The position numbers and the translations under genes are program-made. Positions 6,019-38,898 of a DNA stretch of 64,000 bases are shown here, piece by piece. Every line of letters starts with the position of its first letter. Position 1 is the stretch's first letter. The DNA comes from Citricoccus muralis (lineage in GTDB: Bacteria; Actinomycetota; Actinomycetes; Actinomycetales; Micrococcaceae): contig NZ_CP121252.1 of assembly GCF_029637705.1 (NCBI RefSeq), positions 2,232,001 through 2,296,000 of the forward strand, given 5' to 3'. The notes beneath the pieces were generated by a model. The model was not told the origin of the DNA. It did no database searches and saw only the letters and a program-made list of their open reading frames with translations.

Positions 6019-6927
6019 ATGGATACCACTACAGCCATCTCGATTCAGGACGTCCATCGCCGCTTCGGCTCCGTGACCGCCGTCAACGGGATCACCCTCA
6101 CCGTGACCACCGGGGAGGTGCTGGCCCTGCTCGGTCCCAACGGCGCCGGCAAGACCACCCTGCTGGACATGGTGCTCGGATTCACGACGCCGTCGTCGGG
6201 CACTATTTCGGTGTACGGCCGGGCCCCCGAGGCAGCCGCGCGGGACGGTCAGGTGGGCGCGGTGTTGCAGAACGGCGGGTTGCTCGATGACCTCACCGTG
6301 GCCGAAACCATCCGCATGGTCGCCGCCTGTCACGTCCGCCACCTGCCCGTGGCCGAAGTGATGCAACGGGCCGGCGTGGCCAGCTTCGCCACCCGCAAAG
6401 TCAAGAAATGCTCCGGCGGCCAGCAGCAGCGCCTGCGGTTCGCCCTGGCCCTGCTCACCGACCCGCAACTGCTGATTCTTGACGAGCCCACCGCCGGCAT
6501 GGACGCCGGGGCCCGCCGCGAATTCTGGCAGACCATGCACGCCGAAGCCGAACGCGGCCGCACCATCATCTTCGCCACCCACTACCTGCGCGAAGCCGAC
6601 GACTACGCCGACCGGGTAGTGCTTGTCCAGGGCGGGCGCGTGGTGGCCGACGGCACCGTGTCCGAGATGACCACCGGCTTCCATCGGATCCTGTCCGCCG
6701 AATGGATCGGCGACGACGACCCCCGCGTTTGGGCTGCGCAGGCGGGGCTGTCCGAGGAGCAGTTCACCGTGGAGGCCGAGCGCTCCCGGATTCAGATCAC
6801 CAGCCCGGACACCGATGCCCTCGCCGCCGAGTTGTTGGCCAGCGCGCGCATCCGTCACTTGCAGATCGTCCACCCCGGCATCGAGGACGTGTTCTTTGAG
6901 CTCACCACCCAGGAGGTCCCGGCATGA
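6019..6927 (+). CDS. ABC exporter ATP-binding protein (ABC-2 type)
   Basis: A 302-residue ATPase of the DrrA/CcmA-like group that would power the permease encoded just downstream. Walker A GPNGAGKTT is at about 39-47, the signature is CSGGQQQRLRFA, Walker B is LLILDEPTAGMD and the H-loop follows in FATHYLREADD. The C-terminal 90 residues form the accessory domain common in this group. The stop overlaps the permease start by 4 bases. GGAGG ends only one base before the ATG, unusually close, yet no better in-frame start is nearby. The substrate is unknown; the adjacent DesK/DesR-like pair suggests membrane- or drug-stress control. Confidence 0.9.
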   Translation: MDTTTAISIQDVHRRFGSVTAVNGITLTVTTGEVLALLGPNGAGKTTLLDMVLGFTTPSSGTISVYGRAPEAAARDGQVGAVLQNGGLLDDLTVAETIRMVAACHVRHLPVAEVMQRAGVASFATRKVKKCSGGQQQRLRFALALLTDPQLLILDEPTAGMDAGARREFWQTMHAEAERGRTIIFATHYLREADDYADRVVLVQGGRVVADGTVSEMTTGFHRILSAEWIGDDDPRVWAAQAGLSEEQFTVEAERSRIQITSPDTDALAAELLASARIRHLQIVHPGIEDVFFELTTQEVPA

Positions 6928-7745
6928 GCACCGCCACGACACCCCGTGCGCCCCGTCGAACGCGTGCGCAGATCTTGTTCGGCTTCGTCTGCTGGGAGTT
7001 CTGGCGCAATTTCCGGATGGTCGACGCCACCTTCTTCATCATCGTGTTGCCGGTCGCTATGTACCTGATGTTCGGCGTGGCGATGGGTGTGGAGGGCGCC
7101 CGGGCCGGCGAGGGCAACGTGGCGGCCTACGTGATGACCTCCATGGCCGCTTATGGGGCGGTGATCGCGACGACGGCGATGGCCGGTTCCGCCGCCGTCG
7201 AGCGCACCCAGGGCTGGGGCCGGCAGCTGAATCTCACCGGCCTCACCCCGCCCGCCTACATGCTGGGCAAAATGCTGATGGCCGTGCTGATGGCGATCAC
7301 CCCCATCGTGCTGGTGTATCTGGCCGGGCTGGTCACCGGGGCGGAGCTGGACTCGGTAGAGCTGTGGCTGTCGTCGGCGGCGCTGGTGCTGCTGGTCGCC
7401 GTCCCGTTCTCCCTCTACGGTCTCGCTTTCGCCTTGCTGTTCCGTTCGGAGACGGCGGTGAGTGCGGCGTCCGGGTTCCTGGTGATCTTCGCGTTCTTCG
7501 GCAACCTGTTCATTCCACTCTCCGGGGTGTTGCTGGAGATCGCCCGGTTCACGCCCCTGTACGGGGTGGCGATGCTAGCCCGTTGGACGCAGACCGAGGG
7601 CATGATCGTGCCGATGTCGGAGGAGGAGGCGATGGCCGGCATCGAGTACGAATCCATGTGGGTGCTGCTGGTCAACCTGGGCGCCTGGACGCTGATCTTC
7701 GCCGTCGTGTGTTTGTTGGCCGCCCGTCGCCGGACCTCCCGCTGA
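6924..7745 (+). CDS. ABC-2 type transporter permease
   Basis: A membrane protein of 273 residues with about six hydrophobic segments (around 38-58, 70-95, 120-140, 150-170, 178-200 and 245-265), matching the ABC-2 fold. The conserved ERTQGWGRQLNLTGL block before the third helix is typical of permeases paired with this kind of ATPase. It starts inside the ATPase stop codon, so the two are made together and should form a homodimeric or 2+2 exporter in the cytoplasmic membrane. The cargo is unknown. The kinase gene begins 22 bases downstream, so all four genes probably form one transcript. Confidence 0.88.
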   Translation: MSTATTPRAPRRTRAQILFGFVCWEFWRNFRMVDATFFIIVLPVAMYLMFGVAMGVEGARAGEGNVAAYVMTSMAAYGAVIATTAMAGSAAVERTQGWGRQLNLTGLTPPAYMLGKMLMAVLMAITPIVLVYLAGLVTGAELDSVELWLSSAALVLLVAVPFSLYGLAFALLFRSETAVSAASGFLVIFAFFGNLFIPLSGVLLEIARFTPLYGVAMLARWTQTEGMIVPMSEEEAMAGIEYESMWVLLVNLGAWTLIFAVVCLLAARRRTSR

Positions 7746-7767
7746 GCCGCTGGGTAGACTCGGAACC

Positions 7768-8949
7768 GTGACCACATCGGGCCTGCTAGAGCCTCCCGCC
7801 ACCCGCGAGGAGAAGATCAACACGCTGTTCAGCGCGGGCATCTGGCTGCTGTTCCTGGGGTGGACCGTCTACGGGTTCATCATCTCCGCTGCCCCGGTGT
7901 ACTGGCAGGTGGCCGGCTGGGTGGCGCTGCCGAGTTTCGTGGTGATCTACCTGTACAGCTTCCTGCACCCGGAACCGTTGACCGGGCTGCCCCGGTTCGC
8001 GAACACCCTGGCGTACACCGTCGTGCTGGTGGGTCTGGGGTTCGTGATGATGATGTCCACCCTGTATGCGGTGGTGAACATGGTGCCGTTTTTGATGGCG
8101 CTGTGGCTGTTCAGCTCCCGGCTGCGTACCGGGCTGGCGGCAGTGGCCCTGATCGCCGTCGTCGTCACCTCCCTCGTGGTGGCGTTGCAGCTGGAGGCGT
8201 ACGAGTCCTGGCTGTTGCCCGCCATCGGGATCCCCACCGTGATCCTGGTGATGGTGCGAATCAGCATCGAGCTGGAGGAGCGGCAGCGAGTGAACTCGGA
8301 GCGGCTGGCCCTCGCCGAACAGCGGGAGGACCTGGCCGGAACGGTGCACGATCTCCTGGGACATTCGCTGACCACGGTCACCGTGAAGACCCAGCTGGCG
8401 CGCCGGTTGCTGCGGGTTGACCCGGAGGCGGCAGAGCGAGAGCTCGACGACGTGTTGGCCCTGTCGCGCCGGTCGCTGTCGGAGGTGCGCGCGACCGTGA
8501 CGGATCTGCGCCAGCCGGATCTGCTCGAGCAGTTGGACCAGGCGGAGCAGTCGCTGTGCGCCGCCGGAATCGAGCTGCGGCGCCCGGAACAGCTCCCCGC
8601 ACTGACCCTGATGCAGCAGCAGGTGGTGGCCTGGGTGCTGCGCGAAACCGTGACCAATGTGATCCGGCATTCTGAGGCGCAGCGGTGCACGGTGTGCGTG
8701 GTAGACGGCGACGACGTGGGGCAGGTCATCGTGCGGATCGACGACGACGGGGTCGGCCTGCCGGCGGAGTGCGCCGACGCTGGCCCCGGCACGGGGGCTG
8801 GCGCCGCGGGCACAGGAACCGGGACTGGCACCGGGGCGATCGGCGAGCATCACGGGCTGCTCGGGATGCGCCGTCGCGTGGAAGCCGTGGGCGGCACCCT
8901 GCGCCTGGTGGACTTGGAACCCGGAACCCGCGTGGAGGCGAGACTGTGA
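7768..8949 (+). CDS. Sensor histidine kinase, DesK/NarX-like
   Basis: A membrane kinase of 393 residues. About five membrane helices fill residues 20-165, followed by a dimerisation/phosphoacceptor block LAGTVHDLLGHSLTTV with phospho-acceptor His194 (HisKA_3 type). The ATPase domain has the N-box LRETVTNVIRHSEAQRC and DDDGVGLP. Between the G1 and G2 boxes lies an odd Gly/Thr/Ala-rich insert at about residues 345-362. Translation starts at GTG 7768. The stop overlaps the response regulator start by 4 bases (GTGA). It probably senses the membrane or a transported compound and controls the ABC genes beside it; that link is inference. Confidence 0.9.
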   Translation: MTTSGLLEPPATREEKINTLFSAGIWLLFLGWTVYGFIISAAPVYWQVAGWVALPSFVVIYLYSFLHPEPLTGLPRFANTLAYTVVLVGLGFVMMMSTLYAVVNMVPFLMALWLFSSRLRTGLAAVALIAVVVTSLVVALQLEAYESWLLPAIGIPTVILVMVRISIELEERQRVNSERLALAEQREDLAGTVHDLLGHSLTTVTVKTQLARRLLRVDPEAAERELDDVLALSRRSLSEVRATVTDLRQPDLLEQLDQAEQSLCAAGIELRRPEQLPALTLMQQQVVAWVLRETVTNVIRHSEAQRCTVCVVDGDDVGQVIVRIDDDGVGLPAECADAGPGTGAGAAGTGTGTGTGAIGEHHGLLGMRRRVEAVGGTLRLVDLEPGTRVEARL

Positions 8950-9602
8950 CCCCTGCACCGACTTCTGAACCGACGTCAGAGCGCCCGTCAGAGCTGATCC
9001 GGCTGTTGCTGGCCGACGATCAGCACCTGGTGCGCGCCGGGCTGGCTGCGTTACTGAATCTGGAAGACGATCTCGACGTCATCCACCAACAATCCTCCGG
9101 TGCCGGGCTCGTCGCGGCAGTACAGGAACACCGGATCGACGTCGCCGTGCTCGACATCGAGATGCCCGGAATGGACGGGATCACCGCCACCGAAACGCTC
9201 ACCGCCACCCTCGAACAGCCACCAGCAGTGCTGATTCTGACCACGTTTGGCCGCACCGGTTACCTGCAGCGGGCCATGGCGGCCGGAGCGCGCGGCTTCA
9301 TGGTGAAAGACGCACCCGCCGAGCAGCTGGCTGCCGCGATCCGCACCGTGCATGCCGGGGGCCGGGCGGTGGATCCGGGGCTGGCCGCTGAAGCGCTGAG
9401 CATACCCGCCAGCCCGCTGACCGAACGCGAGGCGGATGTGCTGCGGGCCGCGCTCACCGGGGCCTCGGTCAAGGCGATCGCCGCGCAGCTGTTCCTCTCC
9501 CCCGGCACCGTGCGCAATCACCTCTCCGCGGCCATCGGCAAGACCGGCACCACCAACCGGGCCGAGGCCGCACGCCAGGCCCAGTCCCACGGGTGGTTGT
9601 AA
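8946..9602 (+). CDS. LuxR/NarL-type response regulator
   Basis: A two-domain DNA-binding response regulator of 218 residues. The receiver domain has the acidic pair Asp24-Asp25, the phospho-acceptor Asp70 in VLDIEMPGMDG and a conserved Lys in FMVKDAPAEQL. The C-terminal LuxR helix-turn-helix is SPLTEREADVLRAA through SPGTVRNHLSAAIGKT. The GTG at 8946, overlapping the kinase stop, is preferred over upstream in-frame starts that would lie within the kinase gene. It resembles DesR-type regulators that pair with DesK-like kinases, and the natural target is the ABC exporter operon, though no binding site was recognised. Confidence 0.92.
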   Translation: MTPAPTSEPTSERPSELIRLLLADDQHLVRAGLAALLNLEDDLDVIHQQSSGAGLVAAVQEHRIDVAVLDIEMPGMDGITATETLTATLEQPPAVLILTTFGRTGYLQRAMAAGARGFMVKDAPAEQLAAAIRTVHAGGRAVDPGLAAEALSIPASPLTEREADVLRAALTGASVKAIAAQLFLSPGTVRNHLSAAIGKTGTTNRAEAARQAQSHGWL

Positions 9603-9657
9603 CGTGCGTTGACCGCGCCGTCGTTATCGTGTCCGGGGGCTGTGAGACAGTGGGCTC

Positions 9658-10821
9658 ATGGACGTTCTGGTGATCCTTCTCTGCACTCTGGCCGGTCTTG
9701 TACTCGGCGCCGCGCTTGGCGTCTGGATCGCGTGGCGCCGCTTCTCCGAGAACCCAGAGGAACGGGCGACGGCCGAGCAGCTGCGCACCGAGCTAGCCGA
9801 GGCCCGCACCCGCAGTGAGATGCTGGACCGGGCGCTCACCCAGGAGCAAAGTCGTGCCCGGCAAGACTCCGATGTGTTGCGCGAGCTGAACCCGCTTTCC
9901 CAGCAGATCAAGGATCTGGGCCACCATGTGCGCGTGCTGGAGCGGGACCGGCAGCACCAATACGGCCAGCTCGCCCAACAACTGAAAACCGCCTCCGACA
10001 CGGACTCCGCGCTGCTGCGCAACACTCAGGCGCTGGTGGCCACGCTGCGCGCCAACTCCGCCCGCGGTCACTGGGGTGAGGTGCAGCTGCGACGCATCGT
10101 CGAGGCCGCGGGCATGCTGCGTCACACCGATTTCACCGAACAGGCGCATCTGCGCGGCGACGACGGCGCCCTGCGCCCGGACCTGCTGGTGTACTTGCCC
10201 GGGGAGAAGACCCTCGCCGTCGATGCGAAGGCCCCACTGGCCGCCGTGCTCGCCGCCGAAGAGCTCGCCCAGGCACCCGACGCCGCCGAGCGCCGTCGTG
10301 AATTAATGACCGAGCATGCCAAAGCCGTGCGGGCGCATGTGGACCAGCTCGCCAAAAAACAATACTGGTCGGCCCTGGAGCACTCGCCCGAACTGGTGGT
10401 GTGCTTCCTGCCCGCCGAGTCCTACCTGGCGGCCGCGCTGGAAGCCGACCCACAGTTGCTCGACGACGCCTTCGGGAAGAACGTGGCCCTGGTGTCACCG
10501 GTGTCGCTGCTGGCCGCGCTGAAATCCGTGGCGTATTCCTGGCAGCAGGAGAACCTGGTGGACAACGCCAAGCTGATCGTCGATTCTTCGCGGCAGCTCT
10601 ACCAACGGTTGGCCACCGTGGGCACCCATCTCACGGCCATGGGCAACAGCCTGCGCAAATCGGTGGACAGCTACAACACCCTGGTCGGCTCGGTCGAGTC
10701 CCGCCTGCTGCCCACCGCTCGGCGGCTTAACGAGTTGGACTCCACCCTGACGGCGCAGGAGCCAAGCCGCCCCATCGACTCGGCTCCCCGCTCGCTGAGC
10801 GCTTCCGAACTCCTCGAGTGA
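9658..10821 (+). CDS. rmuC: RmuC-family DNA recombination protein
   Basis: The product (387 residues) has an N-terminal membrane anchor (about 3-25), a charged coiled-coil stretch (about 33-115) and the RmuC domain from about 120 to 365. The block LVYLPGEKTLAVDAKAPLAAV is the predicted PD-(D/E)XK-like nuclease core of RmuC. The family limits inversions at short repeats in E. coli and has been linked to recombination and defence against foreign DNA; the biochemical activity is not settled. It is convergent with the DASS transporter gene, only 17 bases apart. Confidence 0.9.
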   Translation: MDVLVILLCTLAGLVLGAALGVWIAWRRFSENPEERATAEQLRTELAEARTRSEMLDRALTQEQSRARQDSDVLRELNPLSQQIKDLGHHVRVLERDRQHQYGQLAQQLKTASDTDSALLRNTQALVATLRANSARGHWGEVQLRRIVEAAGMLRHTDFTEQAHLRGDDGALRPDLLVYLPGEKTLAVDAKAPLAAVLAAEELAQAPDAAERRRELMTEHAKAVRAHVDQLAKKQYWSALEHSPELVVCFLPAESYLAAALEADPQLLDDAFGKNVALVSPVSLLAALKSVAYSWQQENLVDNAKLIVDSSRQLYQRLATVGTHLTAMGNSLRKSVDSYNTLVGSVESRLLPTARRLNELDSTLTAQEPSRPIDSAPRSLSASELLE

Positions 10822-10838
10822 CCGGCTACCTCGACCGG

Positions 10839-12458
10839 CTAGAGTGACAGCCCGAACACCCACATCAGCAGGGTGAGGCTGGCCGCGGAAATCAGCACGG
10901 CGGCGAAGATGTTGATCAGCGCGCCGCCCTTCACCATCTGACCGATCGTCACATAGCCGGAACCGAAAGCGATCGCGTTCGGCGGCGTGGCCACCGGCAA
11001 CATGAACGCGCAGGTGGCGGCCAGGGCCACCGGGGCGCACAGCATCAGCGGCTCGATGCCGGTGCCCATGGCCACACCGGAGGCCACCGGCAAGAACGTC
11101 GCCGCGGTGGCGGTGTTCGACGTCATTTCGGTGAGCAGCAGAATACCGACGGCGGCAATGACGACGAGCACCCAGGCGGCCACCTCGATGCCCTGCACCT
11201 GCACGCCCAGCCATTCCGAGAGCCCGGATGCCGAGAACTGCGCCGACAGGGCCAGCCCGCCACCGAACAGCAGCAGCACTCCCCAGGGCAGTTCCAGCGC
11301 GGTGTCCCAATCCAGCAGGCGCACCCCGCGGGACGCCCCGGCCGGGCAGAGGAACAGCACCAGCCCCACCAGCATGGCGATGCCGGCGTCGGAAATGAAC
11401 GGATCCTCCAGGCCCAGCAGGTACTCGGACATCAGCGGCACCGTGATCCAGGCGACGGCGGCGGTGATGAAGATGATCAGCACCCGGATCTCCGCGGCCG
11501 ACATGGGGCCCAGCTTCCGGTATTCGCCGCGGATCATCTCCGCGCCCCCGGGAATGTGGTCCATCTCGGGGCGGAACAGCATCTTGGTCAGCACGAACCA
11601 GGCGCCGACCATCAGCACAATCGAGATGGGCACGCCGACGAGCATCCACTGGCCGAAGCCGATGGTGAAGCCGTGCTCCTGCGACATGTGCGCGGCCAGC
11701 AGGGCGTTCGGCGGGGTGCCGATCAGCGTGCCCAGCGAACCGATCGACGCGGAGTAGGCGATCCCCAGCATCAGTGCGGTACCGAAATTCGACTTCTGCA
11801 CCAGCTTCTTGGCCGCACTCTCGTCGTCGCCGTCAAGATGCTCCACCCCCTGCGCCGAGGCGCTCGGGTCCTCCTCGGTGGTGATCTTCTTGACCAGCAA
11901 CAACACGGAAATACCGATCGGCAGCATCATCACGGCGGTGGCGGTGTTGGACACCCACATAGACAAGAAACCCGTGGCGATCATGAACCCGGCGATCAGC
12001 GCGGCCGGTTTCGATCCCATCAGCGAGAGCACGAGCAGCGCAATCCGGCGGTGCAGGTTCCACCGCTGCATGGCCAGGGCGAGCATGAATCCGCCCATGA
12101 ACAGGAAGATGACGTTGTTGCCGTAGCTGGCGCCGATGGTGTCGACGCTGACGCCGCCGTCAGACTCCTCGGCCGGCACCAACACCGGAAAGATGATGAG
12201 CGGCAGTAGCGCGGTGGCCGGAATCGGCACGGCCTCGGTCATCCACCAGATCGCCATCAGCACCGCGGTGGCGGCGGTGAGCCGCGGCCAGACGCCGATG
12301 TCGCCGGGCATGATGAAGAACAGGAGGGCGGCGACGAACAGGCCCAAACTGATGCCCAGCACGCGACGTCGCCAGGTAGTGCGTTCCAGCGGTGGGGTCT
12401 TCGCGCCGGGCGAAAGCTCCCGCTCGTCCGTACTGGGGTGATATTCCTGGGGGCTCAT
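10839..12458 (-). CDS. DASS/SLC13-family sodium-coupled anion transporter
   Basis: A 539-residue membrane protein with some 11-13 hydrophobic helices. The two family hallmarks are the paired Ser-Asn-Thr motifs SNTATAVMMLPI (first half) and TSNTATAATFLPV (second half), which bind sodium and the substrate carboxylate in VcINDY. The WMTEAVPIPATALLPL block near residue 90 is also diagnostic. It should import di- or tricarboxylates such as succinate, malate or citrate with sodium. GAGGAA precedes the ATG at 12458. The gene stands alone; its 160-base upstream gap (12459-12619) would carry the promoter. The exact substrate cannot be told. Confidence 0.9.
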   Translation of the reverse strand: MSPQEYHPSTDERELSPGAKTPPLERTTWRRRVLGISLGLFVAALLFFIMPGDIGVWPRLTAATAVLMAIWWMTEAVPIPATALLPLIIFPVLVPAEESDGGVSVDTIGASYGNNVIFLFMGGFMLALAMQRWNLHRRIALLVLSLMGSKPAALIAGFMIATGFLSMWVSNTATAVMMLPIGISVLLLVKKITTEEDPSASAQGVEHLDGDDESAAKKLVQKSNFGTALMLGIAYSASIGSLGTLIGTPPNALLAAHMSQEHGFTIGFGQWMLVGVPISIVLMVGAWFVLTKMLFRPEMDHIPGGAEMIRGEYRKLGPMSAAEIRVLIIFITAAVAWITVPLMSEYLLGLEDPFISDAGIAMLVGLVLFLCPAGASRGVRLLDWDTALELPWGVLLLFGGGLALSAQFSASGLSEWLGVQVQGIEVAAWVLVVIAAVGILLLTEMTSNTATAATFLPVASGVAMGTGIEPLMLCAPVALAATCAFMLPVATPPNAIAFGSGYVTIGQMVKGGALINIFAAVLISAASLTLLMWVFGLSL

Positions 12459-12619
12459 CGGGGTTCCTCACGGTCGACGGCAACATGCCCCGTGATGGTC
12501 CACATCGACGGGGACGCCCCGAGTCTACCCACCCCGCGCGTGATATGGACCACATCGTCGTCGCCGCCGGCCGTCTTGAGGCTATCTTGAGGTTCAGGCA
12601 GCAGCCATTCAGGAGCAGG

Positions 12620-13561
12620 TCAGCGGCGGGTCATGGCGGTGACGGCGGCTGTGATCAGACCGATGAACACCGCCGCGGCCCCGCCGACCATCACCCACAT
12701 GGTGTCGGGCAGCAGCACGGAACGAAAGCCGCCCACCAACGCCTCCACCATCGCCGATTCCGCGGTACCTTCCGCCGCGGTGGTGGCCTGGGTGAACTGC
12801 TCCTGCAGCCACCAGCGCGCCGCTGCTCCCCCGGCCAGCACGGCAGCGCCACCGAAGAGCCACACCAGCGACCGGCCACGATAGGGCGCGACCATCAGGG
12901 CCACGAGGAACAGCACGACGGCGGCACCGGCGGCCCACATCCAGTACCCCACGACCGATTCGACGAACGCCAGCTGCCGCGGCGACACATCCTCGGTGGC
13001 CGGGAACCCGGTGGTCACACTCAGATCGTCGGGCACCTCGGCCACCGCGTCGTCGATCATCGCACCGATCTGATCCCCGAAGGGCAGCCCGGAGACGGCG
13101 TCGCGCAGTGATGAGGTCAGCACCTCGGCGGAGAGCTGGGCGAGCGGGCCGATGTCCAGGTCCAGTTGGGCGGCGTCGTCGGGCACCTCACGACCGGCGT
13201 CGAGCTCGGTGCGGATGGCGCGCAGTTGCTCCACCCATCCGGTGCGCGTCTGCTCCAGGGACGCCGACCAGGCCTGATCAAAACCCTCGTCGGCGACAAT
13301 GTTGCCGGCCAGCGATCCAGTCACCTGCGACACCATGTCGGCGGCGAATCCGGGGGCGACGTCCTCGAGCGCTTGACCAGCGGCAGAGCCCACCAGCTCC
13401 GGGGCAGCCTCGCGCAACGCCTGCCCCTCCGCCGAGCTACCGGCGATCTGCTGGAGCGGTTCCGGGGTGTGCAGCACGGCGTCGATGCGATAGCTGGCCA
13501 CCGCCAACACCGCGAGCACCCCGCTGAGCACGGCCAACAACGCGGCAAGAACATGTCGCAT
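12620..13561 (-). CDS. Conserved membrane protein of unknown function
   Basis: I do not recognise a named family. The 313-residue product has an N-terminal signal anchor (MRHVLAALLAVLSGVLAVLA), then about 190 residues of alpha-helical, polar, probably extracytoplasmic sequence, and three hydrophobic segments near 200-220, 228-245 and 285-308, the last pair separated by a short Ala/Glu-rich loop. The ATG at 13561 is chosen because AAGGAG sits five bases upstream; an upstream in-frame ATG at 13609 would add an Arg-rich leader. It is transcribed away from xseA across a short divergent region. Confidence 0.75.
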   Translation of the reverse strand: MRHVLAALLAVLSGVLAVLAVASYRIDAVLHTPEPLQQIAGSSAEGQALREAAPELVGSAAGQALEDVAPGFAADMVSQVTGSLAGNIVADEGFDQAWSASLEQTRTGWVEQLRAIRTELDAGREVPDDAAQLDLDIGPLAQLSAEVLTSSLRDAVSGLPFGDQIGAMIDDAVAEVPDDLSVTTGFPATEDVSPRQLAFVESVVGYWMWAAGAAVVLFLVALMVAPYRGRSLVWLFGGAAVLAGGAAARWWLQEQFTQATTAAEGTAESAMVEALVGGFRSVLLPDTMWVMVGGAAAVFIGLITAAVTAMTRR

Positions 13562-27522: not shown

Positions 27523-28146
27523 ATGACGGACGCAGAGAAAACCGGGTTCCGCCAAGAGTATCGACGACGACGCCGCGAGCTGCCCGCGCTCGAGCGTGCC
27601 GCGCAGTCGGCCGCGCTGACTGACGGCGCGCTCACGTTGTTGGCCGAGCGGAAGCAGCAGGCGGAGAACACGGGGCAGCCCTGGCACGGCCGGGTGGCCT
27701 CGGTGATGAGCTACGGCGCGGAACCCGATACCGGTCAGTTGCACGCGCGCCTGGCAGCCGAGGGGGTTGAGGTGTATGTTCCGGTGAGTCTGCCGCAGCG
27801 ACAGCTGGGCTGGGTGCGTTGGTTCCCATCGGTGGCGATGGAACGTTCCGCGGTGGCACCGATCGATGAGCCGGTGGGCGAGCGGTTCGGGGTGGAGCTG
27901 ATGAGCCGGGTCGACGTCGTGTTCGTGCCCGCGCAGGCGGTAGACCCCGCGGGGTACCGGATGGGTCAGGGCGGCGGCTACTACGACCGGTTTTTGGCGC
28001 AGCTGTCGGAGCCGACACCGCTCACGGTGGCGGTGGTGTACACCCATGAACTGGTGGAGCGAGTGCCGCGGGACGAGATGGACCGTCCCACGGACGCGGT
28101 GCTCACCCCGGAAGGACTACACTGGAGTGTCCGAACGGAGCACTGA
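27523..28146 (+). CDS. 5-formyltetrahydrofolate cyclo-ligase
   Basis: MTHFS family, 207 residues. The enzyme converts 5-formyl-THF to 5,10-methenyl-THF with ATP, returning stored folate to one-carbon metabolism. The early FRQEYRRRRREL helix and the family signature GQGGGYYDRFL at about 148-158 are present, as is VFVPAQAVDPAGYRMGQGG before it. GAGAGGT precedes the ATG. The FmdB gene begins 23 bases downstream, a common actinobacterial pairing. Confidence 0.95.
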   Translation: MTDAEKTGFRQEYRRRRRELPALERAAQSAALTDGALTLLAERKQQAENTGQPWHGRVASVMSYGAEPDTGQLHARLAAEGVEVYVPVSLPQRQLGWVRWFPSVAMERSAVAPIDEPVGERFGVELMSRVDVVFVPAQAVDPAGYRMGQGGGYYDRFLAQLSEPTPLTVAVVYTHELVERVPRDEMDRPTDAVLTPEGLHWSVRTEH

Positions 28147-28456: not shown

Positions 28457-28681
28457 TTAGCCCCAGTGCGGGGGTCGCTGCTCGAGTAACCAGCGATCCC
28501 GCTCGCTCAGCGCACCCAAGGTCTGCATGGGACGCTCGGCTGGTTTGCGCGGCGGAGCCGCGTCCGTCGCCTCCGGGTCCAGACGCGGCTCTGCATGGTC
28601 GGCCTCGGCAGGCCCGGTGCCGGGAGCATCCACACGGCGCGACCGGCGCGGGCGCGGATGCTCCCCCGATTCTCGGTTCAT
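28457..28681 (-). CDS. Small conserved hypothetical protein coupled to the helicase-like gene
   Basis: This 74-residue product has a Pro/Arg/Glu-rich, probably disordered N-terminal two thirds and a better-formed end, LGALSERDRWLLEQRPPHWG. Its ATG overlaps the stop of the 1328-residue helicase-like gene by one base (TGATG), so it should be translated with it. The Trp-containing C-terminal motif looks like a short docking helix. I know no function. Coding is supported by the overlap and by a tail that looks constrained rather than random. Confidence 0.65.
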   Translation of the reverse strand: MNRESGEHPRPRRSRRVDAPGTGPAEADHAEPRLDPEATDAAPPRKPAERPMQTLGALSERDRWLLEQRPPHWG

Positions 28682-31600
28682 CAGCGCGTGGCTTCCCCGT
28701 CGTCGGCGGGGAGGCCCAACAGCCCGGCGATCTCCTCGGTCACACCCAGCGGGTTCGAGAACACGTCGATCGTCCAGAGTGGCTGGTGTCGCCAGCCCAG
28801 CCGTTCCAAGGCGGCCGGCCGCAACCGGGACCGCTCGCGTACGCTCATCGCCCGGCCCCGCTCGGAGCCATCCGACGACAGCGCCACCGGGGCGGCATAG
28901 TCCTCAGATTCGGCCCCGTCCCACTGCGGCAGTCGGCGCGGGTTCCAGGCGGCCAGGTCGATCATCCCGGCGCCGTCCACCTCGGCGGTGGCCCCGCGCT
29001 GGTCGAGCAGCTGAGCGATGTCGTGAATCAACGGATCCGATGCGGAAGCATCAGTACCAGCACCGGACTCGGTGCGCGTGGGCTCATCGGCGTCGCGCAG
29101 GAACATCTCCAACACCTCGCGCAGGTGATAAGAGGCGCCCTGCAGCCGCTTCGGGTCCAGGTCAGCGGGGTGAATGCAGGTCAGAATCCGCAGGCTGGAC
29201 CGGGCCCGGGTCAGCGCGGTGGCGTAGTACTGGTGGCTGTGTTGCTCGGACAGCGGACCGAAGTGGTGCACCACCGATTCCTGCGCCCCGCGACCGTAGC
29301 CCAGAGTGAAGATGATGGCGTCGCGGACCAGCCCGTGGGCGCGCTCCATCGGCGCCACCACGAAAGGCTCGCCGCCGTTGCCGGAGTCAGCCGCAAAGTA
29401 CGGCATGGCCCACTTATTGTCGGGCAGGTTCATCCGGATCGCCTCGGCCACCCGTCGAGCGTGGGTGGCGGTCGCGGTGATCACCGCGAGCGAGGTGGTC
29501 GGGTGGTTCTTCAGGTGCTCAAACACCAGGTCCACGGTGCGGTTGACCTCTGCGGTGGTGGATTCCATACCGTCATCGCGCCAGGAGACCGCCCCCTGGG
29601 GCACGTGCTCGACGACGACGGCGGGCTCCCCCAGCCCGGTGAATTCCTCGGCGGACGGCAGGCGGTCGAGCTCGCCGTAGAGTTGGCGGCCCAACAGCCG
29701 GGTGAGCCGCTGGGAGACCCCGCGATGCTGGTAGCGCAACGGCACCTGGGGCAGCACCCGTGACAGGGCGGCGTGCGTGGACTCGGCATCCGTCGGGGTG
29801 CGCCGGGTGGAGGCTGAATCGACCGCCACCTGAAAGGGCTGCGGGCGTCCGGAGACGGCGTCGCCGAAGGCCACGGTCTGGGTGGCGCGGGCGATCGGCC
29901 CCAGCGCGGAAGCGACCGCCAGTGTTTCGGCGTCAAGCAGCAGCACCGTGTCGAAGCGCAGGTCGGCGGGCATTTCGGCCAGGGCCAGCGGGGAGGTGGT
30001 CCAGATCGGCACCAGCGGCTGCAGCACGGCGGCGTCGATCTCGGCCAGCTCCGAGATCTCCGGCGCCCCGCCCTTGAGCAGGTTCCGCAGCGCATCGGCC
30101 GCTTCCGGGTGAGAACCGGTAGCCGCCTCGAACCGGGTGGCCAGCAGGTGCCGCAATCGTGACGGGCCAGCGGCGAGGTGGGCGGCGTCGGCGAGCCGGA
30201 ATTCGGCGTCGATGCGGCGCAGTTCGGCACCGTCCATCATCGCCAGGTGGTCGTCCCCAGAAATCATGGCTTCCAGGGCGGACTGCCACCAGGAGACGTC
30301 GAGTTCGGCGCGCACCTGGGCTGCGGGGATCTCGCGGTCCTGGAAATCGGCGAGCAGTTCGGCCAGGCCCTGTTCGCGCAGCTGATCCAGCACCAACGTG
30401 CGCTCGGGCAGGGTCTGTAGCGTGTCCTGATCGGCCACCAGCCGGTCCAGCAGCACGGCCAGCTCGCTGATCGGCAGGTTCTCCAGCCGCTGCGTGTCGG
30501 CTTCGGGGGTGGCCAATACTTGCTGGAGCCGTTCCAGGTTCTCGGCGAGAGCGCGGCCCTCCTCGGCCAGGGATTCCAGTCCGGAGGGGATCACCGGGTG
30601 GCGCTGGGAGGTGGCCCACTGCCGCCACACGGTCAACTGCGACTGCACCTTGACCAGGGCGGTGTGCAGGTCGTCCACGTGCATACCGGGGCGCACGTAC
30701 TCCTTCGCCACACGACGCAGCCGGGAGCGGGTCATCGCCGACATCTCCACCCCGTGTTCGCGGCGCCAGGAACTCGACGCGGTGGCGGCGATCAGGTCGG
30801 TGACGGGCCGGTCGAAAATATCCGGGGTGAAGTGGTCCAGGGAACCGCGCACGTGCTGGAGCAACTCGATCTGTTCCGACCAGGAGGTCACGGTGTCGCC
30901 GGTGCGCAGCTGCGACTGGGCGGCTGCCTGTTGGATCTTCACCCGCACCACGGGCAGCGCTTTGGCCACCTGTTCGGCCAGGGTGTACGCCTCTTCGGCC
31001 TCCTGGACGTTGCGCAACCGCGCCCCGTACCAGGGCGACTCGACCGCCTGGCGGGAGAAGGCACCCAGCTCGGCGGCTCGGTGGAGCTGCTCGGCGACGG
31101 CCTCGCGGTTCACGGTGGCATCCAGCACCGAGCGTTTCAGCCGCACCGTGGTGGCCGGGGCCGGGTCTAGGGCGGTGAGCTGGGCCAGTTCGCGCATCGC
31201 TTCGAAGGGCGAGCAGTTCCAGCGGGTGCGCACCTGGTGCAGGCTGGCACTGTGGTCAGCCAAGCGGTGGCGGCGCTCCTGCACGGTGGCCTGCACGCGC
31301 TTCACAGCCGGCTCGGTGGCCCGCTCGCCGCGCAGGAGGGCGTGGATGAGCTGCTCGCGCAGGTGTGCCGGGGTGGTGGACGAGGAGACGTTGAGCGCCA
31401 GGCTGGCGAGGTCGAGACGTTCCAGGCGACGGCGCACGTCATCCAGGGTGGCGGTGCGTTCGGCCACGATGAGCACCCGCTGGCCCTCGGCTGCCAGCCC
31501 GGCGGCAGCGGCGACGGCGGTCTGGGTTTCGCCGGTGCCGGGAGGGGCGGAGACCACGAGGGAACGCCCGGCCAGAATATGGTCCACCGCCGTCTGTTGC

Positions 31601-32667
31601 GAGGGATCCAGGTCGAGCACGAGCAGTTCCTCGGCCGGGTCGCGCTCGTCGATCGGAGTCAGGGCGGCGTCGTCGAGCTCGGTGACGTCGACGTCGGCTT
31701 CGGCACCGTCGCGGTACAGGGCGTTGATGACCGGGTGGTCGGTGGAGATCAGCTGCGAGGTGGCCGAGGCGGAGTCGGTGAGGTCGGCGAAGGTGGAGAG
31801 CACGAGGCGGTGTTCCACCACGAGCCCGCGGATTGACGAGTTGTGGGCACGCAGCAGCTCCAGGGCCGGCTGCGGCTCGAACTTCGCGGTGACGTAGGCC
31901 GCACGCTCAAAATCTGCCGGGTCCAGGGTGATGCCGTAGGTGGTGGCAAAGAAGCGCACCAAGGCCGGGTTCAGCCGGGCGCGTTCGGTGATCTGGACTT
32001 CGTAGTCGTCACGTCCGGAACGCTGGGTGAGGCTGATCCGGGCCAGCATCACCGGCGCCGACATCTGCACGGAATGCCCGTTTTCGGAGACCCGCCAGGT
32101 GGCCAGGCCCGCTGCAGCGTAGCCGACGTCGATGCCGCGATCGGCGGAGAGCTCTTCCATTTTGGCGCTGATCTGCCGGGCGGCAACGTAGGCCTGGTCC
32201 AGACCGCTCTGATCCCGCAGCAGCGTGGAGAGCCGGGTGCGGCGCCCGGTGACGAACTGGGTGAGCCCGGAGGGGTGGGCATGGGTGACGTCGATGCTAT
32301 TGTTCGCCGTCGGGCCGAAGCGCAGCATGGTGTCGGAACTGGTGGAGGTGCGCAGCCCGGTGAGCCACTCATCGAAGCTGAACCGGGGCTCGTTCGGTTG
32401 CGGCGCGCTGAGTTCTTCCTCAGCGGGGGGCTCAGGTTCGGAATCCACCTCGGACTCAGCTTCCGCCTCGGCAGACTCGGCCGTGTCGGATTCAGCGGCG
32501 GCGTTGGCTTCGAGGTCTTCGGGCAACGGGGCGCCAGCGGTAACTTCTCCACCGGTGTCCGGCTCGGCGCTGGTGGCGTCCGTGACGTCCGTCTGGGCTG
32601 CCGCGGGGGCGTCCTCGACCGGTTCGGTGGAGTCTGCCTGGGGGGTGCGGTCGTCCGAGTGGCTCAC
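28681..32667 (-). CDS. Very large SF1 helicase-like ATPase with altered Walker A
   Basis: A 1328-residue protein. Residues 1-90 are an acidic low-complexity tail. Residues about 95-330 form a conserved domain starting FDEWLTGLRTST and containing DVTHAHPSGLTQFVTGRRTRL-like sequence, as in DUF4011-type actinobacterial helicase-like proteins. The P-loop equivalent APPGTGETQTA has Glu380 where the Walker A lysine should be, and the Walker B equivalent VLLLDAETLAV (Asp912) has Ala in place of the usual Glu. A coiled-coil-rich middle and a UvrD-like C-terminal core (ALTRARSSLRILTCI) follow. The fold looks like a superfamily 1 helicase, but hydrolysis is doubtful. A small gene is coupled downstream; guaA lies upstream on the same strand side across 161 bases. 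Confidence 0.75.
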   Translation of the reverse strand: MSHSDDRTPQADSTEPVEDAPAAAQTDVTDATSAEPDTGGEVTAGAPLPEDLEANAAAESDTAESAEAEAESEVDSEPEPPAEEELSAPQPNEPRFSFDEWLTGLRTSTSSDTMLRFGPTANNSIDVTHAHPSGLTQFVTGRRTRLSTLLRDQSGLDQAYVAARQISAKMEELSADRGIDVGYAAAGLATWRVSENGHSVQMSAPVMLARISLTQRSGRDDYEVQITERARLNPALVRFFATTYGITLDPADFERAAYVTAKFEPQPALELLRAHNSSIRGLVVEHRLVLSTFADLTDSASATSQLISTDHPVINALYRDGAEADVDVTELDDAALTPIDERDPAEELLVLDLDPSQQTAVDHILAGRSLVVSAPPGTGETQTAVAAAAGLAAEGQRVLIVAERTATLDDVRRRLERLDLASLALNVSSSTTPAHLREQLIHALLRGERATEPAVKRVQATVQERRHRLADHSASLHQVRTRWNCSPFEAMRELAQLTALDPAPATTVRLKRSVLDATVNREAVAEQLHRAAELGAFSRQAVESPWYGARLRNVQEAEEAYTLAEQVAKALPVVRVKIQQAAAQSQLRTGDTVTSWSEQIELLQHVRGSLDHFTPDIFDRPVTDLIAATASSSWRREHGVEMSAMTRSRLRRVAKEYVRPGMHVDDLHTALVKVQSQLTVWRQWATSQRHPVIPSGLESLAEEGRALAENLERLQQVLATPEADTQRLENLPISELAVLLDRLVADQDTLQTLPERTLVLDQLREQGLAELLADFQDREIPAAQVRAELDVSWWQSALEAMISGDDHLAMMDGAELRRIDAEFRLADAAHLAAGPSRLRHLLATRFEAATGSHPEAADALRNLLKGGAPEISELAEIDAAVLQPLVPIWTTSPLALAEMPADLRFDTVLLLDAETLAVASALGPIARATQTVAFGDAVSGRPQPFQVAVDSASTRRTPTDAESTHAALSRVLPQVPLRYQHRGVSQRLTRLLGRQLYGELDRLPSAEEFTGLGEPAVVVEHVPQGAVSWRDDGMESTTAEVNRTVDLVFEHLKNHPTTSLAVITATATHARRVAEAIRMNLPDNKWAMPYFAADSGNGGEPFVVAPMERAHGLVRDAIIFTLGYGRGAQESVVHHFGPLSEQHSHQYYATALTRARSSLRILTCIHPADLDPKRLQGASYHLREVLEMFLRDADEPTRTESGAGTDASASDPLIHDIAQLLDQRGATAEVDGAGMIDLAAWNPRRLPQWDGAESEDYAAPVALSSDGSERGRAMSVRERSRLRPAALERLGWRHQPLWTIDVFSNPLGVTEEIAGLLGLPADDGEATR

Positions 32668-32828: not shown

Positions 32829-34436
32829 TCACTCCCACTCGATGGTGCCCGGAGGCTTCGAGGTCACGTCCAGCACGACGCGGTTGATGCCGTCCACCTC
32901 GTTGGTGATGCGGTTCGAGATGCGGCTGAGCACGTCGTAGGGCACCTTGGCCCAGTCGGCGGTCATCGCGTCTTCCGAGGTCACTGGGCGCAACACGACC
33001 GGGTGGCCGTAGGTGCGACCGTCGCCCTGGACGCCCACGGAACGGACATCTGCGAGCAGGACCACGGGGCACTGCCAAATCTCACGGTCCAGCCCGGCAA
33101 CGGTGAGCTCTTCGCGCACAATGGCATCGGCTTCACGTAGCAGGTCCAGGCGTTCCTTGGTGACCTCGCCGATGATGCGGATGCCCAGTCCCGGTCCGGG
33201 GAAGGGTTGGCGCATCACGATCTCGTCGGGCAGTCCCAGCTCCGAGCCGACAGCCCGGACTTCGTCCTTGAACAAGGCGCGCAGCGGTTCGCAGAGTTCA
33301 AATTCGATGTCGTCGGGCAGTCCGCCCACGTTGTGGTGGGACTTGATGTTGGCGGTGCCCTCTCCCCCACCGGATTCGACGACATCTGGGTACAGAGTCC
33401 CCTGCACCAGGAACTTCACGTCGGTGGCGTTCGGGTCGTTCTGCGAGGCCAACACAATATCGGCCTGGGCCTGCTCGAAGGTGCGGATGAACTTTTCGCC
33501 GATGATCTTGCGCTTGGTTTCCGGGTCGGTGACGCCGGCCAGGGCGTCCAGGAACACGTCCTCGGCGTCGACCATCACAAGTTTGGCCCCGCCCGTTGCT
33601 TTGCCAAAAGCCTTCTCGATCTCGTCGGATTCGTTCTGACGCATCAGCCCGTGGTTGACGTACACGCAGGTGAGCTGGTCACCGATGGCACGCTGCACCA
33701 AAGCCGCGGCAACCGCCGAATCGACGCCGCCGGAGAGACCGCAGATGGCCCGGTGCTCACCGATCTGTTCGCGGATCAGAGCGACCTGCTCGTCGATGAC
33801 GTTGGTGGTGGTCCAGGTCGGGGTGAGTCCTGCGCCCTGGTACAGGAAGTTCTCCAGCACCTGCTGGCCGCGGTCGGAGTGGCCCACTTCGGGGTGCCAC
33901 TGCACGCCGAAAATTCGCCGGTCCGTATCTTCGAACGCGGCGACGGGGGCGCCAGCAGTGCTGGCGGTGACGGCAAAGCCCTCCGGCGCCTCGGTGACGG
34001 CGTCGCCGTGGGACATCCACACCACCTGATCGGCGTCCTGCCCGGCGAAGAGCGTGCACTCCCCTGAGATCTCCTGCAAGCGGGTGGAGCCGTATTCGCG
34101 GGCTCCAGTCTTGGCCACGGTGCCGTCCAGTGCCGCCGCGATGGATTGGAAGCCGTAGCACAGGCCCAGCACGGGCACCCCGGCCTCGAGCAGGGCCGGG
34201 TCCAGGCGTGGGGCGCCGTCTTCGTACACCGAGGAGGGTCCGCCGGAGAGGATGAGCGCGGCCGGGCGCCGGGAGAGAATCTCTTCAGCGGACAGCGTGT
34301 GCGGCACCACTTCGGAGTAGATGCGGGCGTCTCGCACACGGCGGGCGATCAGCTGCGCGTACTGGGCGCCGAAGTCGACCACCAACACGGTGGGGAAATC
34401 GGCGGAGATCTGAGGATTATCTGCGGCGGTCATCAC
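32829..34436 (-). CDS. guaA: GMP synthase (glutamine-hydrolysing)
   Basis: Converts XMP to GMP with glutamine and ATP. The 535-residue protein has the class I glutamine amidotransferase domain first ([17 protein letters not shown]; nucleophile Cys93 in [16 protein letters not shown] with the catalytic His and Glu), the ATP-pyrophosphatase P-loop [11 protein letters not shown] next, and the dimerisation domain ending in [10 protein letters not shown]. Two adjacent ATG codons open the gene. It is the last gene of the leftward guaB-guaB3-surf1-DUF3817-guaA run. Confidence 0.98.
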
Positions 34437-36052: not shown

Positions 36053-37189
36053 TCAGGACTGCGGAGGCGAGGCCACCTGGACCTCAACCTTCTGGAATTC
36101 CTTGAGCTCGGTGTAGCCGCAGGAGGCCATAGCCCGGGCCAGGGCACCCATCAGGTTTGCGGTGCCGTTGGTGTGGTGGGTGGGGCCCACCAGGACCTCT
36201 TCCAGGGTGCCGACGGTGCCCACCTGGGTGCGGTCGCCGCGCGGCAGCGTCGGGTGTGCTGCTTCGGCGCCCCAGTGCCAGCCGGCGCCGGGGGCTTCCC
36301 CGGCGCGGGCGAGTGCAGCACCCAGCATGACGGCGTCGGCGCCCATGGCCAGAGCCCGGACGATGTCGCCGGAGTTACCCAGTCCGCCGTCGGCGATGAC
36401 GTGCACGTAGCGGCCGCCTGACTCATCCATGTAGTCGCGTCGGGCCTCGGCGATGTCCGATATAGCCGTCGCCATCGGCACACGCACACCCAGGGCGCGG
36501 CGGGTAGTGGAGGAGGCTCCGCCACCGAAGCCGACGAGCACACCAGCGGCACCGGTGCGCATCAGATGCAGCGCCGGAATGTAGCCGGCCGCGCCGCCGA
36601 CAATAACGGGAACGTCGAGCTCGTAAATGAACTGCTTGAGATCCAGTGGCTCCTGGGTGGCGGAGACGTGCTGGGCGGAGACGGTGGTGCCGCGAATGAC
36701 GAACATGTCCACGCCAGCGTCGATCACCGTGCGGTAGTGCTCCTGGGTGCGCTGCGGGGTCAGGGCCCCGGCGACCACCACACCGGCGTCACGGATTTCG
36801 GCGATGCGCTGGCTGATCAGTTCCGGCTGAATCGGCGCGGAGTAGAGCTGCTGAAGCCGGGCGGTGTTCTCTGGGGAGAACTGCTCGGCGTTCAACGCGG
36901 CGATCTCTTCGAGAACCGGCTCGGGGTTCTCGTAGCGAGTCCACAGCCCCTCCAGGTTGAGCACGCCCATGCCGCCGAGCTTGCCCAGCGCGATGGCGGT
37001 GGCCGGTGACATCACCGAGTCCATCGGCGCACCGATCACCGGCATGCCGAAGTTGAAAGCGTCGATCTGCCAATCCAGGTTGACGTCTTCCGGACCGCGG
37101 GTGCGGCGGGTGGGGACGATGTTGATGTCGTCCAGGGCATAGGCACGACGGCCGCGCTTGCCGCGGCCGATCTCCACTTCATAGCTCAC
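36053..37189 (-). CDS. guaB3: GuaB3-family IMP dehydrogenase-related protein
   Basis: A 378-residue TIM-barrel protein without CBS domains, the actinobacterial second IMPDH paralogue. It starts SYEVEIGRGKRGRRAYALDD, and shows PVIGAPMDSVMSP, VADGG-type (VIADGGLGNSGDIVRALAMG) phosphate-binding residues and a GGAAG loop. The standard IMPDH block with the catalytic cysteine and following Thr-Thr-Arg is not present in the usual form (GVLVGFGGGASSTTRRALG), so activity differs from GuaB or is uncertain. It follows guaB by 32 bases. Confidence 0.93.
   Translation of the reverse strand: MSYEVEIGRGKRGRRAYALDDINIVPTRRTRGPEDVNLDWQIDAFNFGMPVIGAPMDSVMSPATAIALGKLGGMGVLNLEGLWTRYENPEPVLEEIAALNAEQFSPENTARLQQLYSAPIQPELISQRIAEIRDAGVVVAGALTPQRTQEHYRTVIDAGVDMFVIRGTTVSAQHVSATQEPLDLKQFIYELDVPVIVGGAAGYIPALHLMRTGAAGVLVGFGGGASSTTRRALGVRVPMATAISDIAEARRDYMDESGGRYVHVIADGGLGNSGDIVRALAMGADAVMLGAALARAGEAPGAGWHWGAEAAHPTLPRGDRTQVGTVGTLEEVLVGPTHHTNGTANLMGALARAMASCGYTELKEFQKVEVQVASPPQS

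Positions 37190-37221: not shown

Positions 37222-38898
<1,677 letters not shown>

Follow-up and report, generated by a model that had tools for sequence, protein, structure and literature searches.

A Micrococcaceae core protein with a predicted Upf1-like helicase fold and decayed ATPase motifs, a probable ancient pseudohelicase related to Hhe/ProA and PDC-S37

The gene, its neighbourhood and its distribution

The window analysed here is a stretch of 64,000 nucleotides from Citricoccus muralis, and the gene under study lies on its minus strand as an open reading frame that starts with GTG and encodes 1328 amino acids with no internal stop (Table 1). Pfam matches to AAA_11 (27.7 bits) and to DUF4011 are both above cut-off, and the C-terminal match to MTES_1575, a Vsr-type nuclease domain, stays under its gathering threshold. 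Promoter and terminator scans around the gene added nothing. Further upstream, two adjacent minus-strand genes that resemble IMP dehydrogenase by eye (window positions 36053-37189 and 37222-38856) precede SURF1-like, DUF3817-like and guaA-like genes.

Table 1. Features of the putative pseudohelicase gene and its two neighbours, in positions of the window.
Feature	Position	Strand	Basis
Putative pseudohelicase gene, 1328 aa: DUF4011, SF1 helicase core with helical insert, MTES_1575 nuclease-like domain	28681..32667	-	Open reading frame and profile matches
N-terminal region with DUF4011, residues 100-345 (Pfam match 157-238)	31633..32370	-	Pfam 25.7 bits, cut-off 22.2
Walker A / P-loop, residues 374-383, APPGTGETQT	31519..31548	-	Sequence; strand-loop-helix in AF2 model
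Codon GAA, Glu380 replacing the Walker A Lys	31528..31530	-	0/88 family rows with Lys
All-helical insert, residues 446-830	30178..31332	-	Conservation about equal to lysine rows; separate fold model
Degenerate motif II (Walker B), residues 905-915, FDTVLLLDAET; Asp911 to Leu, Glu912 to Asp	29923..29955	-	Alignment
Degenerate motif III, residues 930-942 (Gln939 to Ser)	29842..29880	-	Alignment
Degenerate motif V, residues 1104-1117; AHGLVRD where lysine rows have VQGDERD	29317..29358	-	Alignment
Motif VI, residues 1148-1158, Arg1154 retained	29194..29226	-	Alignment
C-terminal MTES_1575/Vsr-like nuclease domain, residues 1206-1320, Glu1264 to Ser	28708..29052	-	Pfam 20.6 bits, cut-off 38.2
guaA-like gene (GMP synthase; named by eye), directly upstream	32829..34436	-	Neighbour kept across family
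5-FTHF cyclo-ligase-like gene (named by eye), downstream, convergent	27523..28146	+	Recurrent neighbour

The position of the gene is stable within the family. In all 18 named Micrococcaceae loci (L002-L019) guaA precedes it. Judged from flanks of ~4 kb, a 5-FTHF cyclo-ligase-like gene follows it in 17 of them and also in 14 of 39 loci from other families of the order, the 14 belonging to families f3, f4, f8, f9, f12 and f16. Other recurrent downstream genes are mechanosensitive-channel-like, SAF-like and zinc-ribbon-like, the downstream gene clusters being the longest open frames, named by eye.

The gene was found in 394 of the 395 Micrococcaceae genomes searched, representing 32 of 32 genera; this family, coded f1, was taken to be the Micrococcaceae from named matches in Arthrobacter, Glutamicibacter and Kocuria. 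With a threshold of E <= 0.001, the order yields it in 148 genomes out of 149, the best E-value being <= 1e-40 in 147 of the 149. Outside the order, matches at E <= 0.001 occurred in 83 of 118 genomes of the class and 30 of 100 of the phylum; those listed are mostly short and lie over the ATPase stretch, and full-length ones are few. A strongly reduced genome of the order (G441, only 0.8 Mb) keeps an ORF of 1205 codons (L120) with an unrecognisable P-loop.

The C. muralis genome holds a single match to the gene, which for this genome alone excludes a dead copy regulating an active paralog. Many other family genomes have two to four matches each, pieces and paralogs being pooled in these counts. 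For example, frames of 2167 codons at G008:C12 ~58078-64443 and G038:C13 ~6446-12811 lie alongside the dead short form; they match HEPN and C-terminal parts, in G008 the helicase part too, and are long GKS-type relatives (2167 aa).

The ATPase motifs and the predicted fold

A preliminary description of this DNA had reported a glutamate in place of the Walker A lysine and a missing DE pair at VLLLDAET, and both observations are confirmed. The plus-strand bases TTC give the codon GAA for Glu380 on the coding strand, and motif II aligns without gaps to FDVVIFDEASQ of the lysine-bearing relatives, placing Leu911 against the Asp and Asp912 against the Glu. The glutamines of motif III (Ser939 in this protein) and motif V (His1111) are both lost as well; Arg982 of motif IV and Arg1154 of motif VI are retained. 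No GK[ST] string occurs anywhere in the 1328 residues, which rules out a second classical P-loop elsewhere in the protein.

An AF2 model of residues 125-1322, built from an alignment of 62 sequences, has a pLDDT of 91.3 and a pTM of 0.82, and predicts a Upf1-like fold with a helical insert. In this model the loop sits between strand 370-373 and helix 380-393 (246-249 and 256-269 in model numbering), the normal Walker A site, and the two RecA-like lobes with the P-loop and motif II in their standard places are those of an SF1B Upf1-like fold. The residues by which an enzyme of that kind would be recognised, a Walker A GK[ST] and a motif II DE, are E380 and L911-D912 here. In structure comparisons, the top rows by VIA Z are tied between IGHMBP2 (18.1; 4.7 A, 461 aligned) and Aquarius (18.1; 4.6 A, 445), followed by Dna2 (17.7; 4.1 A, 426), nidovirus helicases (17.5-17.6) and Upf1 (17.5; 4.9 A, 469), and the best UvrD row reaches 16.8 (3.3 A, 311). 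In the Foldseek list Aquarius leads, ahead of Senataxin, Upf1 and Dna2 in that order. The comparison with UvrD and Upf1 called for by the preliminary description therefore yields a predicted SF1 fold that is somewhat nearer to Upf1, IGHMBP2 and Dna2 than to UvrD, judged by Foldseek, weak sequence matches and VIA Z (18.1 vs 16.8). Folded alone, the insert is predicted to be all helical (pLDDT 93.7). A Foldseek search of the insert against the PDB returned no match at E <= 0.001, which is no proof of a new fold, and its best VIA Z, 6.4 (2.9 A, 85 residues), is under the level that the tool regards as telling for helical proteins.

The loss extends far beyond this strain. At position 380 the 88 Micrococcaceae rows hold Q (70), A (6), E, P, L, G and R (2 each) or D and V (1 each), and with K in 0 of the 88 the absence of lysine from the family is not due to chance. 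Across the order, lysine is absent from 157 of 166 rows, and the nine rows that have it are confined to two families (f5, 2 of 2; f16, 7 of 10); none of the other 154 rows, from 16 families, has it. An alignment-free search for the GK[ST] P-loop pattern likewise found no such P-loop in these 154 rows: [AG]xxxxGK[ST] strings are present in 36 of them, 35 of which could be located in the alignment, none at residues 370-386. It should be noted that motifs were read in 89 of the 149 order genomes, with f10 excluded, f15 represented by one incomplete row and f17 by one row, that L020 (a distant Crocinitomicaceae match with GKS) is omitted from the family counts, and that rows derived from contigs and from the genome set (G) may share strains.

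The remaining motifs follow the lysine. Typical lysine-bearing rows read GPPGTGKSQT, FDEASQ, GDxxQLPP and QGDERD, with L096, L097 and L099 deviating, and the DE pair of motif II is present in 9 of 9 such rows and in 0 of the 157 without lysine. Among the latter, Asp911 alone is kept in 31, Glu912 alone in 8, Q939 in 4 and Q1111 in 32, and 124 of the 157 lack K380, the DE pair, Q939 and Q1111 altogether. Because loss of the lysine is always coupled to loss of the motif II pair, loss of hydrolysis is favoured over an altered working site. The preliminary description had raised the latter as an alternative, in which ATPase activity would be retained through a non-canonical site or compensating residues. 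RecA lobes that are full-length and constrained (dN/dS 0.053 for residues 831-1165) would fit it; however, the DE pair is missing in 157 of 157 non-lysine rows and the motif III Gln in 153, the C. muralis protein has no GK[ST], none of the placed strings of the other motor-less rows aligns to the P-loop, and motifs I, II, III and mostly V decay jointly. We therefore regard a retained ATPase as very improbable. The loss of ATP hydrolysis that the same description had put forward is, by contrast, strongly supported by these sequences, and the shared degenerate class that it suspected is wider than guessed.

The homologue table at Glu380 and Asp912 also contradicts the case in which this strain would be the sole exception amid GKT/GKS homologues. 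A close relative (L030) has the identical GAA codon, four others (L024, L029, L031 and L033) have Gln encoded by CAA or CAG, dN/dS is ~0.06, and no internal stop occurs among the family matches listed. A sequencing error, a point mutation or a decaying pseudogene in this strain is rejected on the relatives and dN/dS, and its probability is next to nil.

History of the loss and selection on the gene

Phylogenies were reconstructed in two ways. In a FastTree tree of 128 rows (leaving out L020, the fragment L132 and 38 close relatives), a single clade (support 100) unites 100 non-lysine rows from 14 families and excludes the lysine rows of f5 and f16; in an IQ-TREE tree of 45 rows with the motif columns removed, 28 non-lysine rows from 15 families form one clade (SH-aLRT 99). 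The lysine state changes three times in either tree, with two of the changes forced by starred branches in the first and all three forced in the second. Non-lysine rows outside the main clade belong to f16 (g56, g67) and to the class families f24 and f35, which have R at 380. In the rows of these two class families (L122-L127) the P-loop Lys is replaced by Arg (GRT/GRS) and motif II is altered, a parallel loss outside the order; they form one clade in the 128-row tree and two branches in the 45-row tree.

Parsimony counts are blind to gain versus loss, so that one early loss with regain in f5 and f16 costs the same, and several long branches together with the small lysine group (12 rows, 6 families) leave details of the trees unsure. 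A regain would need motifs I, II, III and V to be restored together, and both the long relatives L133-L140 and L121, L128, L129 and L130, which are short and distant, have these motifs intact. Hence the changes are apparently separate losses, three in the FastTree tree and four in the IQ-TREE tree. On the sequences, ATP hydrolysis very probably disappeared in the ancestor shared by the one clade of 14-15 sampled families, and independently in other lineages as well.

The forms with and without the motor share their chromosomal setting. At least one downstream gene is common with motor-less loci in four of the five lysine-bearing order loci with long flanks (L082, L096, L097 and L099; not L083), and the same holds for L125 of class family f35. 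Since downstream genes are common to both, the lysine-bearing and the motor-less forms are very probably orthologs.

The gene is kept by purifying selection, as judged from a dN/dS of 0.062 overall (17 usable of 18 Micrococcaceae pairs). By region, dN/dS is 0.072 for the surroundings of the P-loop, 0.057 for the insert, 0.053 for residues 831-1165 and 0.081 for the nuclease, with 16 to 18 of the 18 pairs usable and dS saturated in one pair for the whole gene and two for the nuclease. The ratio of motif to insert conservation is 1.70 in the lysine rows (12 rows, mean identity 0.46), 1.07 (1.02-1.14; 300 draws of 12 families each) across non-lysine families and 1.04 (0.98-1.11) within the Micrococcaceae, where one draw had an identity of 0.48. 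Single columns agree in direction: R647 of the insert is fixed at 1.00 in the non-lysine clade versus 0.50 in the lysine rows, and A654, L671, R778, E788 and W794 in the insert and H131, P132, G134 and R151 in the N-terminal region are likewise more fixed in that clade. As the lysine side consists of 12 rows from 6 families, single positions are weak, and the regional shift is large. These ratios and columns indicate that constraint has moved from the ATPase motifs to the insert and the N-terminal region. The fold, the family's motif IV and VI arginines and the helical insert are all still constrained. A predicted helicase fold, lost catalytic motifs and a gene under selection, the combination that defines a pseudohelicase, are found together here, and because the motor was lost and the gene kept, the conserved job would need no ATP hydrolysis.

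Relation to known systems and possible function

The closest described models are those of defence proteins. The NCBIfam pair (ProA NF058533 / Hhe NF042953) gives 320.1 bits for ProA and 166.8 bits for Hhe against curated cut-offs of 1500 and 2000, and the ProA model run over the C. muralis genome found nothing above cut-off. In PADLOC, PDC-S37 (PDLC05009) matches with 361 bits in two stretches, the best covering 708-1334 of 1550, and Hhe with 111 bits. The helicase and C-terminal parts align with Hhe, ProA and PDC-S37 over ~640 residues; unlike Hhe and ProA, with NCBIfam models of 1797 and 1903 positions and cut-offs far above the present scores, this is a 1328-residue protein with dead ATPase motifs, encoded by a core gene with a fixed place in the family. 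Scores are much higher for short relatives with the lysine (four have 682-883 bits to ProA and three 665-894 bits to PDC-S37), and GKS and DEAS are read in all eight long relatives, L133-L140, versus E380 and L911-D912 in C. muralis.

The C-terminal domain bears on the possibility that the protein is a phage-defence effector, its helicase dead and its nuclease alive, acting as an ATP-independent DNA-binding nuclease of the Hhe/ProA/PDC-S37 kind. The above scores favour it, as does a candidate acidic triad of D1237, E1264 and D1266, putatively catalytic because of its conservation in the lysine rows (8 of 9), which is kept in 38 of 88 non-lysine family rows. However, the triad is kept in only 5 of 69 other non-lysine rows of the order, the C. 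muralis copy has Ser at 1264 (with D1237 and D1266 kept), and near-universality, a fixed locus in the family and purifying selection are unlike a defence gene that is gained and lost; we consider such an effector quite unlikely. Since the non-lysine clade keeps D1266 (99 of 100), the arginines at 1277, 1279 and 1281 (95, 91 and 94) and the Gly-Trp pair at 1291-1292 (99), the domain is kept as a fold, and perhaps as a DNA binder.

Another relative is the MTES_1575-type protein of Microbacterium testaceum, for which the published account gives the order HEPN, transglutaminase, SF1 helicase, Vsr REase and wHTH (PMC3710099). Both proteins combine an SF1 helicase with a Vsr-type REase domain; by the same account, the M. 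testaceum protein is at least 2161 aa long and has HEPN and wHTH domains that are missing here (PMC3710099), and by this architecture it is not the ortholog. To judge from the label, it is presumably the source of the Pfam domain name MTES_1575. In long proteins of this type, HEPN_Swt1 and DUF3320-type domains flank the helicase and nuclease. A stand-alone HEPN_Swt1-DUF3320 protein (~434 aa) is encoded outside the window at G000:C1:2012696-2013997 (L192, L194), where its gene adjoins ORFs resembling scpA and scpB by eye, and the ProA model also matches the end of this separate gene in the C. muralis genome. As a universal split partner it was rejected: it was found in only 7 of 64 family genomes, in three of which (G008, G038 and G021) through pieces of long proteins.

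Upf1-like SF1B helicases are active ATPases. The present protein resembles Upf1, IGHMBP2, Dna2, Senataxin/Sen1 and Aquarius in its two predicted RecA lobes (VIA Z 15.6-18.1), and differs from this group in having lost motifs I, II, III and V and in an added helical insert of ~385-430 residues. Inactivated SF1 folds that recognise DNA beside a nuclease are known in RecC and AddB, subunits of RecBCD and AddAB with an active partner helicase, and these serve as analogues for a helicase fold used for grip or recognition. PriA is of the SF2 family. In Deinococcus radiodurans PriA, ATPase and unwinding were unmeasurable and the protein still binds ssDNA and forks (PMC4504706), a clade-level loss of Walker A and B in a bacterial helicase that is still in service, as here; unlike the present protein, it acts in replication restart and belongs to the Deinococcus-Thermus phylum. 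Likewise, yeast Utp25 is described as a pseudohelicase whose helicase motifs are dispensable in an essential protein (PMC9539457); the helicase fold is a common trait, and Utp25 differs in being DEAD-box-like and in acting in eukaryotic ribosome assembly. A DUF4011 gene is core in Pseudomonas aeruginosa, present in every isolate that the authors searched (PMC10250203). In the open-licence PMC literature (subscription journals lie outside it) no paper on this DUF4011 core pseudohelicase family and none on PDC-S37 was found, against three for DUF4011; pseudohelicases and Hhe/ProA helicases are known kinds, and an order-wide DUF4011 core pseudohelicase was not found there.

Our preferred explanation, which we hold to be rather probable, is an ancient core pseudohelicase, kin to Hhe/ProA and PDC-S37, that lost its motor and serves as a hydrolysis-free nucleic-acid clamp or scaffold. 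The protein, with its DUF4011, Upf1-like SF1B helicase and Vsr-like nuclease parts, would be the Micrococcaceae ortholog of a near-universal core protein of the order. Its two RecA-like lobes would no longer cycle on ATP and would bind DNA or RNA independently of hydrolysis, the helicase fold gripping or recognising nucleic acid rather than unwinding it, in the manner of D. radiodurans PriA (PMC4504706). The conserved work would fall to DUF4011 and the helical insert, whereas the C-terminal domain would bind DNA and in some lineages perhaps still cut it. That the protein binds nucleic acid is a conclusion drawn from its fold and its homologues, and a clamp or sensor role is plausible.

Two observations count against the clamp or scaffold. 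Decay is uneven, with the motif V Gln in 32 and Asp911 in 31 of 157 non-lysine rows, and the family keeps G377, G379, the Q-motif Gln and the motif VI Arg, so that nucleotide binding as a switch is possible. The latter would suit a nucleotide-gated sensor, in which the Micrococcaceae protein would bind ATP or another nucleotide without hydrolysing it and so switch its grip on nucleic acid: G377 is kept in 57 of 57 family rows, G379 in 50 of 57, Gln357 in 82, Arg982 in 87 and Arg1154 in 84 of 88, and position 380 is most often Gln. In families elsewhere in the non-lysine clade, however, the loop has decayed, with Asp at 379 in 17 of 100 rows and unrecognisable loops in f4, which argues that nucleotide binding is no general need of the protein. 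We consider such a sensor, the chief rival reading, unlikely.

With the clamp or scaffold as the preferred reading, a possible and tentative scenario is that an early ancestor of the order domesticated a defence-type helicase-nuclease, whose motor was switched off and whose function shifted to the insert, so that it became an ATP-free surveillance or scaffold core factor. If so, most of the order would carry an ATP-free nucleic-acid surveillance or scaffold factor in its core genome. The pseudohelicase also connects core genomes with defence proteins of the Hhe/ProA group. A core gene without a described function in nearly all sampled genomes of the order is worth testing. The label "ATPase" or "helicase" would mislead, hydrolysis having very probably been lost long ago and more than once. 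Lysine-bearing orthologs with similar chromosomal surroundings (4 of 5 checked) offer a natural comparison of motor on versus motor off. Family f16 mixes dead copies (L118, L175 and L176) with live ones (L080, L082, L083, L096, L097, L099 and L177), and may offer the best case for studying a more recent loss of the motor.
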